A stretch of 29,222 bases of DNA from Gemmatimonadota bacterium (lineage in GTDB: Bacteria; JBHIER01; G020348925). The position numbers were made by a program, and so were the translations under genes. The DNA lies in NCBI GenBank assembly GCA_020348925.1, contig CP070758.1, forward strand, positions 3,327,360-3,356,581, given 5' to 3'. Within the stretch, counting starts at the first letter, position 1. Each line of letters begins with the position of its first letter. Below, piece after piece: positions 14,525 through 23,523 of the stretch. The notes under the pieces are model-generated. The model was given only the letters and a program-made list of their open reading frames with translations. It had not been told where the DNA came from and searched no databases.

Positions 14525-16825
14525 ATGAAAAGGAGTATGGTGCAGCGGAGACTCGTTCTCGCCTGGATTTGTCTGGGATTTACCTCCATGGTCGGGCAAG
14601 TGGTCCTGATGCGTGAGCTGTTGGTGGTCTTTTACGGAAACGAGATGTCCCTGGGGATTATTCTGGCCTGCTGGCTTTTTTGGGTAGGGGTGGGGAGTCT
14701 TGTTTTGGGAAGATTGGTGACAGAAAATGGGCGCGGAATAAAGGCTTTTGTCCTGTGTCAGATGCTCTTGGCATTATTTCTCCCTCTGTCCCTTGTCATG
14801 ACCCGGATCTCAAAACTGGTCATTGGTGTTTCGCCGGGCGAGATTATGGGACTCTTCACCATGGCAGGTATCTCCTTCGTTCTGTTGGCCCCATTGTGTA
14901 GTGTGCTGGGTTTTCTTTTTGCATTAAGCTGTCGTCTTTTCACTGCTGAAACCAACCGGGCAGCTACACATATCGGACGGATTTACGTTTTCGAAGCCGT
15001 GGGGGCGACCCTGGGCGGTGTACTATTCAGCTATATTTTTATCCATGTTCTGCACCCTTTTCAGATCGCGTGGCTGGTCAGTACGTTCAACCTCCTTTTG
15101 GCATTCATAATCACTCTTTCGAAATCGTATTTTGAAAGAAAAATACTGGCTCTTGCTGTCTTCGGTATTCTCGTTGCCGATCTTGCTCTCGGTGTGTGGG
15201 GTCTTGATACATTACATTGGTCCTCACTCCGCTGGCAGTGGCCAGGGTTTGAATTGATCTCCTCGGAGGATTCTGTCTATGGGAACGTTACCGTGAACGA
15301 GAGAGGTGAACAGCGAAATGTCTTCGGGAACGGACTGCTTCTGTGTGCCCATCCGGATCGCTTCGTGGCAGAGGAGTCGGCTCATTTTGCCCTTTTGGAG
15401 CATCCACATCCCCATCGTGTTTTGCTCATCGGGGGGGGTGTGAGTGGTGCTCTTGAGGAAATCCTGAAGCATCCGGTTGACGAAGTGACATATGTAGAGC
15501 TCGATCCTCTTGTTATTCAAGTGGCCCAGCGCGTGTTATCCAAAGAGCAGTTGATGCTGGATAATCCGAAAGTGATCCTGCACCATCTCGACGGGCGACT
15601 CTACGTGAAACGCGCGACAGTCAAGTATGATGTTATCATTATCAATCTTCCCGAGCCCTTCACGGCCCAGCTCAACAGGTTTTATACTCTTGAGTTCTAT
15701 CGGGAGACGAAGCGAATTTTAAATGATGACGGGATCGTCTCCTTTCGAATAACGTCCGCGGAAAATTACATCAGCAATGATCTTCAAATACTTTTGGCCA
15801 GTTACGATCGTACCCTTCGACAGGTTTTTGCCGAGGTGAAGATCCTCCCCGGCAACACGAACATCTTTTTAGCCTGTCAACAAAGTGGTGTGCTCACATA
15901 TGACACGCACACTCTTGTCGAACGTCTCAAGGAACGACGGATTGAAACGCACTATGTGAGTGAGTATTATCTCCCCTTTCGACTTGCAAGCGAACGGATC
16001 GACTACCTGCATGATCGCATTCGTAGGGCAGACCACACGACGTCGAATACGGACTTTCATCCCATCACTGCTTTTTACAATATGGTTCAGTGGACGACCC
16101 AATTTCAGTCCCCTTTGTCCTCGGTCCTGCGCAGTTTCGGTCGAGTGACCCTGGCGTGGATCCTTCTTCCTCTGGGGGCGGTTTCTCTTCTTCTTTTTGG
16201 GTGGGGCTTTCGCTCCGTCGGTCTGCGACGATCCACTCTGCTTGTGGTCCTTGGGATCACTGGGGCTCTGGAAATTATTTTTGAGGTGGTTCTTCTCATC
16301 GGTTTTCAGATTCTGTATGGATTCGTATACTCAAAGATTGGCATTCTTCTCACGGGATTTATGGTGGGACTGACGAGCGGAGGCTGGTGGATGACGAGGC
16401 GCCTCGGCAGGAAAAATGTGACGCACGGTAGTATTATAAAAATACAGGGTGCTCTTTGCGTGTATCCCCTTGCGATAATTGGTGCTTTCAAGGGCCTTAC
16501 GGTTTTGAGCGGGAACACAATTGTGTTTCTCTCGACAGAAATTCTTTTTCCAGTTCTTATCGCTTTCGGTGGATTCTTGGGTGGAGCGCAGTTTCCTTTG
16601 GCCAACAAGCTCTACATTGAAGGAGGGGGGAGAGCCGAACATGCCGGAGCCAAGGGCTATGGTGTCGATGTTTTGGGATCAAGTCTCGGAGCCCTTATCG
16701 GCGGTTCCCTTTTGATTCCGATTCTCGGGATCTGGAACACTTGTATATTTCTGTCGTGTCTGAGCCTCTTCGCACTTCTTCTCCTCCTTCCCGAGACTCT
16801 CGCTCCCAAAACAGCTTTTTCCTGA
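14525..16825 (+). CDS. Polytopic membrane protein with embedded spermidine-synthase-like methyltransferase-fold domain
   Basis: 766 residues. N-terminal membrane block (about 10-225, roughly 6-7 helices), a Rossmann domain (about 245-480), then a second membrane block (about 540-760). The soluble part shows VLLIGGGVSG (about 299-308), an acidic strand end YVELDP (about 323-328), DGR at 356-358, and YDVIIINLPEP at 368-378. In true aminopropyltransferases an Asp sits where this protein has Asn (INLPEP), so it is probably not a polyamine synthase; the substrate is unknown. 'Fused MFS/spermidine synthase' proteins of this type occur widely. The start is uncertain: M1 lacks a Shine-Dalgarno, while AAGGAG inside the gene favours M5 (14537) or GTG 14540. 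Confidence 0.85.
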   Translation: MKRSMVQRRLVLAWICLGFTSMVGQVVLMRELLVVFYGNEMSLGIILACWLFWVGVGSLVLGRLVTENGRGIKAFVLCQMLLALFLPLSLVMTRISKLVIGVSPGEIMGLFTMAGISFVLLAPLCSVLGFLFALSCRLFTAETNRAATHIGRIYVFEAVGATLGGVLFSYIFIHVLHPFQIAWLVSTFNLLLAFIITLSKSYFERKILALAVFGILVADLALGVWGLDTLHWSSLRWQWPGFELISSEDSVYGNVTVNERGEQRNVFGNGLLLCAHPDRFVAEESAHFALLEHPHPHRVLLIGGGVSGALEEILKHPVDEVTYVELDPLVIQVAQRVLSKEQLMLDNPKVILHHLDGRLYVKRATVKYDVIIINLPEPFTAQLNRFYTLEFYRETKRILNDDGIVSFRITSAENYISNDLQILLASYDRTLRQVFAEVKILPGNTNIFLACQQSGVLTYDTHTLVERLKERRIETHYVSEYYLPFRLASERIDYLHDRIRRADHTTSNTDFHPITAFYNMVQWTTQFQSPLSSVLRSFGRVTLAWILLPLGAVSLLLFGWGFRSVGLRRSTLLVVLGITGALEIIFEVVLLIGFQILYGFVYSKIGILLTGFMVGLTSGGWWMTRRLGRKNVTHGSIIKIQGALCVYPLAIIGAFKGLTVLSGNTIVFLSTEILFPVLIAFGGFLGGAQFPLANKLYIEGGGRAEHAGAKGYGVDVLGSSLGALIGGSLLIPILGIWNTCIFLSCLSLFALLLLLPETLAPKTAFS

Positions 16826-16959: not shown

Positions 16960-18114
16960 ATGAAATTGAACATCGAAGGGAAGAGAATTTTTGCGATTAC
17001 CCTCTTGGTCGTCATCATTTCGTTTCTTCATTATGTTACCAGCATTCAATCCCCTCATCTCCACGCCATATACGCCCGGGCTTATTATATCCCCATTATC
17101 CTGGCAGCCTTCTGGTATAGCTTGAGAGGCGGGATTGTCGTGTCCGCGGTCGTCGGTCTCATTTATCTGCCCCACGTCATCTTTCAGTGGGGTGGTGGCT
17201 TGGGAAATCTGAGTCGGTTTCTGGAGATCGTGATGTTCATCGTGGGGGGATTGCTGACAGGTCTTATGGTTGAGCTAGTGGTGGAGCAGAGGAACAAGTA
17301 TCAAAAGAATGCCCAGGAGCTGGTACGATCGTACGAAAAACTGAGGGGGCAGACCGAAAAACTCCTGGAAATGGAGGATCATCTCCGGACTTCTGACCGA
17401 TTGGCCGTTATGGGGGAACTGAGCGCCAGTTTGGCCCACGAGGTGAGAAATCCTCTCGGATCGATCAGAGGTACCGTCGATATTCTGAGGAAAGAATTCC
17501 CGGCCGGTGGCAAGCACATGGAATTCTTTAAAATATTGGTGCAGGAGGTCAATCGTCTGAATGAGGTTGTCGAGCGCTATCTCGGACTGGCGAAGCAAAA
17601 GCGGCAGAAAATGGTTGAAAAAAACTTATGTGATATCGTTCAATCCGTGGTCGATCTCGTCTCCGCAAAGGCTCGCAAGGAAAAGATCGATCTTATTGTT
17701 GTGAAACCTGCGGAGACAATTACAGTATTCACCGATGAGACGCTTCTGCAACAGGTCTTACTCAATATTCTTCTGAATGCCATGGCCTCAATGGAAGAGG
17801 GTGGGCGCATCCTCATCTCCCCTTCACTCAAGAGAGAAGCCCCGAAGGCAGGAACCTCCCCTCACCCCTACGCTTCAGTGACCGTTTCCGATACGGGCAA
17901 GGGGATAAAGGAGGCGGAGATCGATAACGTTTTCAAACCTTTCTATACGACGAAGGCCGAGGGAACGGGTCTGGGCTTGGCCATTGCCAAGCGCTCTCTC
18001 CAACAGCTCGGTGGAGAAATCGGGCTGGAGAGTAAGGAGGGAGCCGGAACCTTAGTCACAATTACTCTTCCTTCAGCGGAGGGAAAGCGGAAGAATCTAT
18101 GGGATCAATCTTAG
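16960..18114 (+). CDS. NtrB/ZraS-type membrane sensor histidine kinase
   Basis: 384 residues. Three to four membrane helices at the N-terminus (about 8-27, 40-75, 88-107) form a compact sensor with little periplasmic sequence. A coiled linker follows (110-140), then HisKA with phospho-accepting H160 in LAHEVRNPLGSIRG, and the HATPase domain: N-box near 269-273 (NILLNAM), G1 DTGKGI (311-316), F-box FKPFYTTK, G2 GTGLGLAIA (335-343). All catalytic motifs are intact. It overlaps the downstream response regulator by 16 bp, so they are cotranscribed and coupled. GGAGAGG stands 9 bp before the ATG. The signal is unknown. The metal-efflux locus downstream makes a ZraS-like metal signal attractive but unproven. 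Confidence 0.93.
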   Translation: MKLNIEGKRIFAITLLVVIISFLHYVTSIQSPHLHAIYARAYYIPIILAAFWYSLRGGIVVSAVVGLIYLPHVIFQWGGGLGNLSRFLEIVMFIVGGLLTGLMVELVVEQRNKYQKNAQELVRSYEKLRGQTEKLLEMEDHLRTSDRLAVMGELSASLAHEVRNPLGSIRGTVDILRKEFPAGGKHMEFFKILVQEVNRLNEVVERYLGLAKQKRQKMVEKNLCDIVQSVVDLVSAKARKEKIDLIVVKPAETITVFTDETLLQQVLLNILLNAMASMEEGGRILISPSLKREAPKAGTSPHPYASVTVSDTGKGIKEAEIDNVFKPFYTTKAEGTGLGLAIAKRSLQQLGGEIGLESKEGAGTLVTITLPSAEGKRKNLWDQS

Positions 18115-19442
18115 TCATTGACGACGACGAAAGTTTCATCCGGGTTCTGGAGCATATGTTGATTGAAGACGGCCATCGGGTGGCGACGGCCAGTGACGGT
18201 GAACGCGGACTCAAGATCTTCAAGGGCGGTTCTTTCGACATTGTACTCACGGATCTGATGATGCCCAAGCTCGACGGCATGGCGGTCCTCAAGGAGGTGA
18301 GACGAATCGATCGAGAGGCGATCGTCATTTTCATCACTGCCCATGGGACCGTGGAGAATGCAGTTGAAGCCTGTCGCCTCGGAGCTACCGATTATATCAC
18401 GAAACCATTCAGCCATGAGCAGTTGAGTTTCGTCGTGGAGAAGGCGATCAAGGTGCGGGAATTGCTCTCGGAGAATATTCGCCTGCAAACTGAATTGTCT
18501 GAGAAGTATCAATTCAAGAATATTGTGGGGCGAAGCGCCCGGATGGAAGAGGTCTTTCGGCTGGCAGGCCAGGTAGCAGGGAGCGATGCCACAGTTCTTC
18601 TACTGGGAGAAAGCGGCACCGGAAAAGAACTCATTGCACGGGCGATCCATTTTAACAGTCCGAGGGAGAAAAGACGTTTTATGGCCATCAACTGTGCGTC
18701 CATTCCGGACAATCTGATGGAGAGTGAACTCTTCGGCCATGTGAAAGGTGCTTTCACCGGAGCGATGAAGGATAAAAAAGGTAAGTTTGAGTTGGCTGAT
18801 GGCGGGACCATCTTCCTCGATGAAGTGGCCGATTTAAAGAGCGACCTCCAGGCGAAACTTCTCCGTTTTTTACAGGAGCGAGAGTTTGAACCTGTCGGTG
18901 CTACCGAGCCGATACGAGTCGATGTCCGTATCATCGCAGCAACCAACAAGGATCTTGAAAAATTAATCCGCGAGGAGAAGTTTCGCGAGGATCTCTATTA
19001 CAGGCTGAGCGTTGTACCCGTCGTGCTCCCACCTTTGAGAGCGAGGAAGGACGATATTCCCCTGCTCGTCGATCATTTCCTGAGGAAATACGGAGGGGAA
19101 AAATCCTTCACCGTCGCTGACGATGCCATGAAGATTCTTTACGAGTTCGACTGGCCGGGCAACGTCCGGGAACTGGAAAACGTGGTGGAACGGGCCGTCG
19201 TGTTGGCCGGAGGCGGGGTGATAACGTCCGATTTACTCCCCTCATCACTTCGGACAGGGCGTTTCGAGGGAAAAGAATTCGAGGTCACCACAGAGGGTCT
19301 CTCCATGGCCGAAGTTGAAAGGCAGACTCTTCTTGCAGCCTTGGAGCGCACGGGCTGGAACAAGACCAAAGCGGCGGAGTCACTGGAGATTCCGCGACAT
19401 GTTTTGATGTATAAAATGAAGAAATTGGGACTCCAAGGCTAA
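18099..19442 (+). CDS. NtrC-family sigma-54 response regulator (REC-AAA+-Fis)
   Basis: 447 residues. Receiver domain (about 3-115) with the acidic pocket D8-D10, phospho-acceptor D52 in LTDLMMP, T80 and K102. The AAA+ domain has Walker A GESGTGKE (170-177), GAFTGA (218-223), GGTIFLDEV, and an intact sensor motif AATNKDL. The C-terminal Fis HTH is NKTKAAESLEIPRHVLMYKM. It should activate sigma-54 promoters after phosphorylation by the overlapping upstream kinase. Two sigma-54 promoter matches (about 20018 and 20424) and a cluster of repeated half-sites (19893-19936) lie in the 1 kb after its stop, making a local regulon likely. Confidence 0.95.
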   Translation: MGSILVIDDDESFIRVLEHMLIEDGHRVATASDGERGLKIFKGGSFDIVLTDLMMPKLDGMAVLKEVRRIDREAIVIFITAHGTVENAVEACRLGATDYITKPFSHEQLSFVVEKAIKVRELLSENIRLQTELSEKYQFKNIVGRSARMEEVFRLAGQVAGSDATVLLLGESGTGKELIARAIHFNSPREKRRFMAINCASIPDNLMESELFGHVKGAFTGAMKDKKGKFELADGGTIFLDEVADLKSDLQAKLLRFLQEREFEPVGATEPIRVDVRIIAATNKDLEKLIREEKFREDLYYRLSVVPVVLPPLRARKDDIPLLVDHFLRKYGGEKSFTVADDAMKILYEFDWPGNVRELENVVERAVVLAGGGVITSDLLPSSLRTGRFEGKEFEVTTEGLSMAEVERQTLLAALERTGWNKTKAAESLEIPRHVLMYKMKKLGLQG

Positions 19443-19892: not shown

Positions 19893-19936
19893 GTGCACAA
19901 AAGTGCATGAATTGCACCTCTCCCTGTGCACGTGCA
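19893..19936. promoter_or_regulatory. Cluster of TGCAC/GTGCA half-sites, probable NtrC-type enhancer (UAS)
   Basis: Within 44 bp there are several copies of GTGCA or its complement TGCAC. They form the dyads TGCAC-AAAA-GTGCA (19894-19907), GTGCA-N5-TGCAC (19903-19917) and TGCACGTGCA (19927-19936). The cluster ends about 80 bp upstream of the sigma-54 promoter at about 20018, a usual enhancer distance. The regulator encoded just upstream is the natural candidate to bind it. Confidence 0.55.
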
Positions 19937-20016: not shown

Positions 20017-20033
20017 CTGGCACGAAATTTGTT
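20017..20033 (+). promoter_or_regulatory. Sigma-54 (-24/-12) promoter, ncRNA-proximal
   Basis: CTGGCACGAAATTTGTT matches the consensus YTGGCACGRNNNTTGCW at every fixed position except T for C in the -12 element. GG (20019-20020) and GT (20031-20032) are separated by 10 bp. The expected start falls near 20043, in GGGGCAG. Confidence 0.6.
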
Positions 20034-20042
20034 TATTAAAGG

Positions 20043-20314
20043 GGCAGTTGTATGACGAACTCATTTATGCTCCTTTCCTTTCAGTCGATTTGTTTGAAAG
20101 GGAAGCCGAAAGATAGATTGAAAGACAACCGCAGGCGAGTAGCCGGGTTATGACAAAACGATAAGCTAACCTACCTATTCGTCCTACCAAATTTTCCGCT
20201 ATTGTTCCCTCTTTTGGTGAAAGCCTGCGGTGTTTTTCAAACCTTCAGGTTAAAACCTGGTTCTTCCTCCTGCAGAATAATCGACACCGAATGAAGATTA
20301 TTCTGCATTTTTTT
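20043..20314 (+). ncRNA. Candidate sigma-54-driven structured RNA (about 270 nt)
   Basis: It is bounded by a sigma-54 promoter and a strong terminator, with no normal gene between. Foldable parts: hairpin CTTTCCTTTC (20073-20082) with GAAAGGGAAG (20096-20105); a perfect 9-bp long-range stem ACCGCAGGC (20128-20136) with GCCTGCGGT (20223-20231), followed by TGTTTTT; and the terminator hairpin. The first strand of the long stem can instead fold locally (AACC...GGC-GAGTA-GCC...GGTT, about 20127-20150), so two folds compete. A 33-codon frame (20052-20153, starts MTNSFM, ends RVAGL) covers that region, so a leader peptide or dual-function RNA is possible. I recognise no known RNA family. Confidence 0.45.
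20271..20314 (+). terminator. Strong intrinsic terminator
   Basis: TGCAGAATAATC (20271-20282) and GATTATTCTGCA (20296-20307) form a perfect 12-bp stem with a 13-nt loop, followed by seven T (20308-20314). Confidence 0.9.
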
Positions 20315-20372: not shown

Positions 20373-20413
20373 AATAAGCCGTTAGCGAGAAACGCGAACG
20401 GCTTATTTTTTTG
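20373..20413 (+). terminator. Second strong intrinsic terminator
   Basis: AATAAGCCGTT (20373-20383) and AACGGCTTATT (20397-20407) form an 11-bp perfect stem. The loop can add a GCG/CGC pair. A T-run follows. It lies 10 bp before the next sigma-54 promoter and shields it from upstream transcription. Confidence 0.88.
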
Positions 20414-20423
20414 GTACCGAAAA

Positions 20424-20439
20424 TGGCACGGAACTTGCG
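20424..20439 (+). promoter_or_regulatory. Sigma-54 (-24/-12) promoter of the metal locus
   Basis: TGGCACGGAACTTGCG has the full TGGCACG and TTGC elements, with GG (20425-20426) and GC (20437-20438) 10 bp apart. The expected start at about 20449 gives a leader of about 60 nt before the GTG at 20510. Confidence 0.75.
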
Positions 20440-21753: not shown

Positions 21754-23523
21754 ATGAGAAAGGTACTGTCATTCGGTTTGGCCGGATTGGTGTTGTCCGC
21801 ATGTGGGGCTTTTGCCTATCAGAACATCACTCCGTCTGAGGTGTATGAGAAAATGGCGAGCGGCGATGAGATGGTGATTGTGGATGTCCGGGAGCCGTGG
21901 GAATATGAATCCGGACATATTTCCGGAGCAATCAATATGCCGTGGAACAGCGGTGTGCTCCAGGCACGATACGAAGAGCTGCCCTCAGATAAGGAGATAA
22001 TTGTCGTCTGCCGGAGCGGGAACCGGAGTGTCTCTGCCAGTCTTTTTCTCGATGGTCAGGGTTTCGACCGAGTCTTTAACATGCTCGGCGGTATGCTCGC
22101 CTGGAAATGGGATGTTGCTACGCCCGGTTCTGGGACGCATCATCACGGTCCCGGTTGGATATACAGGGATAGTGAGGATTCGACATTCATCCATTGCCCG
22201 ACGGATTCTCTGGACTGGCTGGAGTTTCCACCGGGAGGCATGATGCACCACCATTTCCCCGATTCGATCTACTGCAATTTTGTGGAGATGCACCCGGACA
22301 GTGTGCCTTGGCCCAACGATTCGACAATGATCGGAGGGTATCACGTTGACATCTCGGATCCGATGGGGCACGGGATGATGGGTGGTGGTCAGATGGGATT
22401 CGGGCAGGGCATCGGGCTCCATCTCCACTACGATGATCAAATGTTGATCGGCGTGTTGGAGGATGGGATGATGCTGAGGTACTGGGATGAGGGGAGCGGG
22501 CAGTGGATCGATGTCCCTGCGGCAATGCAGGATATGGATCAGAATATATTCTTGGTCTCACAAGCTTCAATCCGGTCTTACTACGGACTTTTTGCCACCC
22601 CAATGGGACCGAAAAAGGGAGACTTGAACAGCGATGGTCTGGTGGATATTACGGATACCATTGTGCTGGTGCAGATCATTCTCGGCGGCCAGGACACGAC
22701 CCCGGAACAAATTGAGGTCGCTGATCTGAATACGGATGGGGCGATCGATATTCTCGATGTCTTACAAGTTGTGAACATCATTCTCGGAGTCAGCCCCAAA
22801 GGAGGTGAGACGGGGTGGCGTTCGCAGGCATTTTTACGAGTTCCCTCGAGCGTTGTTGTTCGTGACCGTTGTGTGACGATTCCGATTTCATTGGAGACGG
22901 AGACCCCGGTGTCCGGTCTTCAGTTGGCAGTGACGTATGACGGGCGAAAATTGCGCCCTGGAATCCCGAAAGGAACGGACAAGACGGAGCATATGACGTT
23001 TGAATGGACTCAAAGAGATTCGGAGATTCTCATGCTCTTTTACAGTACTCAGGGAAAACAGATTCCGGCAGGACCGGCTGTTCTTGTTGAGATACCTTTT
23101 GAGCCCGTTGCAGGGGCCGCCGGGGAGTGTGCGTTGTGTATCGGGGAGGCCATTGTGGCCGGATCGAACGGAGAATCAATCGAGGCCATGACTTCGGTCT
23201 CAGCCATTACGCTTGGTGCAGTCGATCTCGAATCTTATCGGCTTTTCCAGAACTACCCGAATCCCTTCAATCCTGAGACTGAAATCGCATTCCAGATACC
23301 TGGGGCAAGTGGCGATGGGGAGCATCGTGTCGCGTTGAAGATTTATAATGTCCTCGGCCAGGAGATCCGGACTCTCCTTGAAGAACAGAAGAGACCGGGA
23401 TTCTATTCTGTGCGCTGGGATGGTCGTGACAACAACGGTACTGAGGCCGTCAGCGGCTTCTACTTCTACCGATTGTCCGCCAAGAATTTCACAGCAACGA
23501 AGACTATGGTTCTTATGAAGTAG
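21754..23523 (+). CDS. Secreted rhodanese / His-Met-rich / dockerin / cohesin-like / type IX-like sorting-domain fusion
   Basis: 589 residues. N-terminal signal with a lipobox-like LSAC (C16) or alternatively signal peptidase I cleavage after AFA. Rhodanese domain (about 26-121): VIVDVREPWEYESGHI and active-site C86 in VVCRSGNRS, so it could carry persulfide sulfur. A His/Met-rich stretch (about 128-230: THHHGPG, GGMMHHHFPDS, MGHGMMGGGQMG) suggests metal binding. A dockerin-type pair of Ca-binding repeats (about 287-345) has GDLNSDGLVDITD and ADLNTDGAIDILD. A cohesin-like beta domain lies at about 358-485. The C-terminal sorting module (about 495-589) shows FQNYPNPFNPETEI, LKIYNVLGQEIRTL and SGFYFYRL. 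This combination beside Cu/Ag efflux genes is unusual. The module assignments are firm for the rhodanese and sorting parts, fair for the others. Confidence 0.85.
   Translation: MRKVLSFGLAGLVLSACGAFAYQNITPSEVYEKMASGDEMVIVDVREPWEYESGHISGAINMPWNSGVLQARYEELPSDKEIIVVCRSGNRSVSASLFLDGQGFDRVFNMLGGMLAWKWDVATPGSGTHHHGPGWIYRDSEDSTFIHCPTDSLDWLEFPPGGMMHHHFPDSIYCNFVEMHPDSVPWPNDSTMIGGYHVDISDPMGHGMMGGGQMGFGQGIGLHLHYDDQMLIGVLEDGMMLRYWDEGSGQWIDVPAAMQDMDQNIFLVSQASIRSYYGLFATPMGPKKGDLNSDGLVDITDTIVLVQIILGGQDTTPEQIEVADLNTDGAIDILDVLQVVNIILGVSPKGGETGWRSQAFLRVPSSVVVRDRCVTIPISLETETPVSGLQLAVTYDGRKLRPGIPKGTDKTEHMTFEWTQRDSEILMLFYSTQGKQIPAGPAVLVEIPFEPVAGAAGECALCIGEAIVAGSNGESIEAMTSVSAITLGAVDLESYRLFQNYPNPFNPETEIAFQIPGASGDGEHRVALKIYNVLGQEIRTLLEEQKRPGFYSVRWDGRDNNGTEAVSGFYFYRLSAKNFTATKTMVLMK

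Follow-up and report, generated by a model that had tools for sequence, protein, structure and literature searches.

Between a sensor kinase/NtrC-type response regulator pair and a CusABC-like metal-efflux operon there is a 272 nt interval (20043-20314) in the window, by which we mean the whole 29,222 nt stretch of Gemmatimonadota DNA analysed here. The initial annotation described this interval as a structured RNA lying between a sigma-54 promoter and a terminator, and the locus raises the question of what kind of RNA this is and on which gene it acts. The structure noted there is real and extends beyond what had been seen. The interval folds to -83.2 kcal/mol compared with -59.4 kcal/mol in shuffled sequences (z -5.3), and none of 200 shuffles is as stable as the 127 nt element alone (z -5.7). 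The perfect 9 bp long-range stem (P1) is present as claimed; it encloses an element of about 110 nt and in this copy (c1) it continues outward as far as 20118/20240. The coordinates of all features are given in Table 1.

What had been missed is that the genome (5.04 Mb, one contig) carries nine further copies of this structured RNA. The region is similar by blastn to four other loci of its own genome, and at one of these a tandem second copy (c5b) was spotted by eye. A covariance model made from these first six copies found four additional ones, with E values from 7e-5 to 2e-15, and a second model recovered exactly ten scattered copies, each with E≤2e-11, and nothing more up to E=1 in the same genome. 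A 12 bp hairpin in the 5' part of the window transcript was not seen in any of the nine copies with which c1 was compared.

Compensatory changes are present in the closing helix, where variants across the copies include CCGCAGG/CCTGCGG, GAGCAGG/CCTGCTC and GCGGG/CCCGC. In the ten-copy alignment of both helices, 91% of cells hold standard pairs, as against 77% in shuffled alignments and 33-46% when the partners are slid, and two-sided changes occur in nine of the 16 pairs. The covariation score is 0.386 compared with 0.189 for shuffled alignments, a value reached by 0/500 shuffles; these figures lean towards the model, since the structure guided the alignment and every row is a paralogue from one genome. 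The effect is large and was already visible in the first six copies, which were aligned without structure. The substitution pattern indicates that the fold is under selection.

The element consists of P1, an internal loop, a short second helix (P2) and a large loop with a pyrimidine-rich strand of about 50 nt. In the internal loop, AGUA faces GAA in seven copies, and the flanking bases are G and A (U and C in c4). The sarcin-ricin, or bulged-G, module has a G-U-A triple, an A.G pair and a tolerated C-U alternative at the flanking pair (PMC8450098). The GAGUA/GAAA loop resembles this loop E module, including the U.C alternative of the flanking pair in c4, and from this sequence likeness we infer a sarcin-ricin-like module. 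It differs in that three copies (c3, c5a and c6) carry canonical pairs and a bulged C instead. In these copies three positions switch in concert to give an ordinary helix with a bulged C (bulge G to C, A.A to A-U, and A.G to G-C or A-U), and this could have been a single ancestral event.

The large loop is poor in G. Its last 55 nt are 31% C, 40% U and 9% G in c1, and 27-42% C, 31-40% U and 4-16% G across all copies. UCCC occurs in 10/10 copies where 6.2 are expected, and both UCCCUC (shuffled mean 0.7) and CCUACC (shuffled mean 0.5) occur in 8/10. ACAAAA is equally frequent (8/10 copies, shuffled mean 0.39) and is probably the tip of a hairpin, P3, for which RNAalifold gives an inner pairing of GGG/CCC and single-sequence folds give GGGUU/AACC. 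The candidate seed bases of c1 are mostly unpaired in the predicted fold.

Promoters and terminators were identified as consensus matches. The sigma-54 promoter of the initial annotation is present upstream of the element and differs from the consensus at a single base, the -12 C; a shuffled window is expected to hold 0.05 sites that come this close (one mismatch at most), and a sigma-54 gene is encoded in the genome. The terminator is as described, a 12 bp TGCAGAATAATC/GATTATTCTGCA hairpin at 20271-20307 followed by T7. The window copy thus looks to be independently transcribed from its own promoter to its own terminator. A second terminator-like hairpin (20377-20412) precedes a second sigma-54-type promoter, ATGGCACGGAACTTGCG at 20423-20439, which is directly ahead of the metal-efflux operon. 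Upstream of the first promoter there are seven GTGCA/TGCAC pentamers within 56 bp, whereas 200 dinucleotide shuffles of the window gave clusters of four at most, and the cluster includes a single exact perfect palindrome, TGCACAAAAGTGCA (19894-19907). The array resembles the NtrC box, TGCACCAnnnTGGTGCA (PMC8743547), and is possibly a set of sites for the adjacent NtrC-type regulator. Among the other copies, c6 is preceded at a distance of 142 nt by a near-consensus sigma-70 promoter (TTGACA-16-TATATT), and in c7 a strong 8 bp terminator comes directly after the element. An own promoter and terminator are good in c1 and partial in c6 and c7; they are not evident in c2, c3, c5 and c9. The opposite strand was considered as the functional strand and rejected because the loop-E sequence, the promoters and the terminators are on the + strand of the element.

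Table 1. Features of the locus and the ten copies of the element. Positions are those of the window, except for c1 to c9, where the genome position given is that of the element's first base, read along its own strand.
Feature	Position	Strand	Evidence or remark
Sensor histidine kinase, same two-component system	16960-18114	+	HisKA, HATPase_c
NtrC-family sigma-54 response regulator gene	18099-19442	+	Response_reg, Sigma54_activat, HTH_8
GTGCA/TGCAC pentamer cluster, candidate activator sites	19893-19936		Seven, overlapping, upstream of promoter
Sigma-54-type promoter CTGGCACGAAATTTGTT	20017-20033	+	One mismatch to YTGGCACGRNNNTTGCW; predicted start about 20044
5' hairpin of window transcript, 12 bp	20073-20105	+	Fold of 20043-20314
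Repeated structured RNA element (c1)	20118-20240	+	Covariance model match 20124-20236, 111 bits
P1 5' strand ACCGCAGGC	20128-20136	+	Partner 20223-20231; two-sided changes in 7/12 P1 pairs, ten copies
Sarcin-ricin/loop-E-like internal loop, strand 1 GAGUA	20137-20141	+	Ten-copy alignment; geometry inferred from sequence
P3 hairpin, conserved apical UGACAAAACGAUAAGC at 20151-20166	20145-20172	+	Pairing weakly supported
Pyrimidine-rich, G-poor strand, candidate antisense seed	20168-20214	+	UUUUCCGCU 20192-20200; UUCCCUCU 20205-20212
Sarcin-ricin/loop-E-like internal loop, strand 2 GAAA	20219-20222	+	Ten-copy alignment
P1 3' strand GCCTGCGGT	20223-20231	+	T-rich stretch next
Small hairpin separating element from terminator	20245-20260	+	Fold
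Intrinsic terminator, 12 bp stem and T7	20271-20314	+	Fold
c1	3347483	+	Window copy
c2	2973676	+	
c3	2881456	-	
c4	1403042	-	
c5a	3315443	+	
c5b	3315577	+	
c6	1798253	-	
c7	675492	+	
c8	915531	+	
c9	774562	-	

We give an about even chance to the reading that c1 is one of ten paralogues of an undescribed, sRNA-like family whose pyrimidine loop pairs with ribosome-binding sites. The window copy would be a free-standing small RNA of about 270 nt, made from the sigma-54 promoter and ended by its own terminator, and the neighbouring NtrC-type regulator probably activates it together with the metal-efflux operon. The rigid stem would display the pyrimidine strand, which would pair with purine-rich ribosome-binding regions and block translation. 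One mRNA predicted as a target is that of the neighbouring response regulator itself, which would give negative feedback. Copies c6, c7, c8 and perhaps c4 may act likewise as separate RNAs, and c2, c3, c5a/c5b and c9 may act from within 5' leaders.

The prediction of Shine-Dalgarno pairing and translational repression by c1 comes from duplex energies. The best partner found lies directly ahead of the regulator ATG, where AGCGGAAGA and GAGGGAA are predicted to pair with UUUUCCGCU and UUCCCUC at -34.9 kcal/mol, an energy that ignores most accessibility effects. This value is reached by 0/326 start regions, sampled from about 0.5 Mb of the genome, and by 1/1000 shuffled loops. This target came to attention in a scan of 14 local start regions, and correction for that leaves a significance of only about 0.01-0.04. 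The same seed is common to c1 and c2 and nearly so to c3. Pairing with Shine-Dalgarno regions is to be expected of any RNA rich in C and U.

The initial annotation had proposed another mechanism, in which translation of a 33-codon ORF (20052-20153) chooses between the long-range stem and a local hairpin (20127-20150), as in a leader-peptide attenuator or a riboswitch. Both the ORF and the hairpin do exist in c1. The frame is not conserved, however, since in 7/9 other copies an AGG-TGA stop closes it right after P1, and the leader ORF was rejected for this reason; the full hairpin is possible in c1 and its close copy c2, but the outer part is absent elsewhere. The sole Shine-Dalgarno-like sequence, AGGGG (20040-20044), reaches no further than the predicted start site, so the ORF would have no Shine-Dalgarno sequence in the predicted transcript, and the terminator closes that transcript ahead of the next gene. 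Additionally, the genes near the copies share no common pathway (metal efflux, ftsA, response regulators and a large secreted protein). A metabolite riboswitch serving a single regulon was rejected on these contexts, and unrelated downstream genes argue against a single-ligand riboswitch or attenuator. A fold decided by translation is therefore highly improbable.

A domain acting in cis within mRNA leaders is possible, if somewhat unlikely; it would bind a protein or a general signal and control the downstream gene, for example by the UCCCUC strand hiding or freeing the Shine-Dalgarno sequence. Six copies (c2, c3, c4, c5a, c5b and c9) are upstream of a same-strand gene, c2 ending about 26 nt ahead of an ATG that is served by a GAGGAGG ribosome-binding site, and c5a and c5b, which have differing internal-loop subtypes, forming a tandem pair in the ftsQ-ftsA gap of the division cluster (L009 4994-5235). 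A conserved three-dimensional module would also suit a binding site. The presence of several copies in 5' leaders is not required by a pure sRNA family and counts against the sRNA reading. Copies c6, c7 and c8, however, face away from the next gene; they point into no same-strand gene and so cannot be ordinary 5' leaders. In c1 the two terminator-like hairpins and the second sigma-54 promoter separate the element from the next gene, the lack of a shared pathway downstream again speaks against control in cis, and the proportion of same-strand copies does not seem clearly above that of random placement. It is unlikely, too, that the element is a dispersed non-coding repeat of the REP/MITE kind, hairpin DNA spread by a trans-acting transposase with the RNA structure as a by-product. 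Such a repeat would fit the occurrence of ten copies dispersed over intergenic sites, their inverted-repeat ends, the one tandem pair, and the 87% identity by BLAST, ends included, between two of the copies. Against this, most copies have kept P1, the internal loop and the loop motifs but have otherwise diverged widely, a pattern that implies selection acting on every copy; the asymmetric GAGUA/GAAA loop is sensible for RNA and not for DNA, and neither a transposase nor a target-site duplication was noticed at the examined copies. A combined scheme seems distinctly improbable to us: one lineage-specific domain, its sarcin-ricin-like stem displaying a pyrimidine-rich antisense strand, would serve in leaders, among them that of ftsA in the division cluster, as well as in the form of free sRNAs made with different sigma factors, its shared seed joining stress signalling, metal efflux and division.

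The sRNA reading has close parallels in known systems. In Listeria monocytogenes, UCCC-containing sites of LhrC bind a G-rich sequence upstream of the target start codon (PMC4132741). The element resembles LhrC1-5 in having multiple paralogues per genome (ten here), in its low G content and redundant UCCC motifs in unpaired regions, and in expression linked to a two-component system and Shine-Dalgarno pairing, although the pairing has been shown for LhrC and is predicted here (PMC4132741). Unlike LhrC, it has a sarcin-ricin-like loop that closes one large pyrimidine loop, sigma-54 control is predicted, and copies are also found in 5' leaders. FopS of Bacteroides (RF04319) is a 14-member paralogous sRNA family in one genome and likewise acts near mRNA start codons, but its seed is at the 5' end and its fold is different (PMC11697453). 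The FopS model scores 20.1 bits against the region (gathering threshold 56, E 1.4), which is chance level and outside the element core. Hfq was not found in the genome by Pfam PF17209, though sigma-54 is present, and this counts against the sRNA reading.

The element matches no Rfam family, GEMM included. With Rfam 15 at the gathering threshold, a tRNA-His is the sole match in the entire window, and at E≤10 the sub-threshold matches in the region are at chance level, with the GEMM, LhrC and T-box thresholds not reached. Searches with the model gave only chance-level scores in 386 distant genomes and nothing further above chance level in the 39 genomes nearest by FtsZ (the source genome included) and the small phyla around three of them. 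A strict DNA pattern scan of 84,980 GTDB species gave five matches, none with a good model score, and pattern and BLAST scans did not find the element in plasmid and phage collections. The source genome is deep-branching and the only member of its phylum among the genomes compared, and absence from the nearest genomes says little because these are merely about 60-65% identical in FtsZ. Judged by these searches, the element is a new, previously undescribed RNA family, probably a variant of the known multicopy-sRNA kind.

To our knowledge, no sRNAs have been described in the phylum of the source bacterium. Discovery in the Rfam style depends on many related genomes, so structured RNA families confined to poorly sampled phyla are easily overlooked; in this case the comparison could be made among ten paralogues of a single genome. 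Should the sRNA reading prove right, the copies form a regulatory RNA family that is multicopy, probably under sigma-54 control and built on an unusual three-dimensional module, and there is a directly testable feedback circuit around the metal-efflux two-component system.

Two proteins encoded on either side of this locus are also of note. The metal-efflux region of the window includes, at 21754-23523, a protein with rhodanese, dockerin, cohesin-like and FlgD_ig domains. For the 766-aa protein encoded at 14525-16825, Pfam gives a single match, a central spermidine-synthase domain (residues 283-453).
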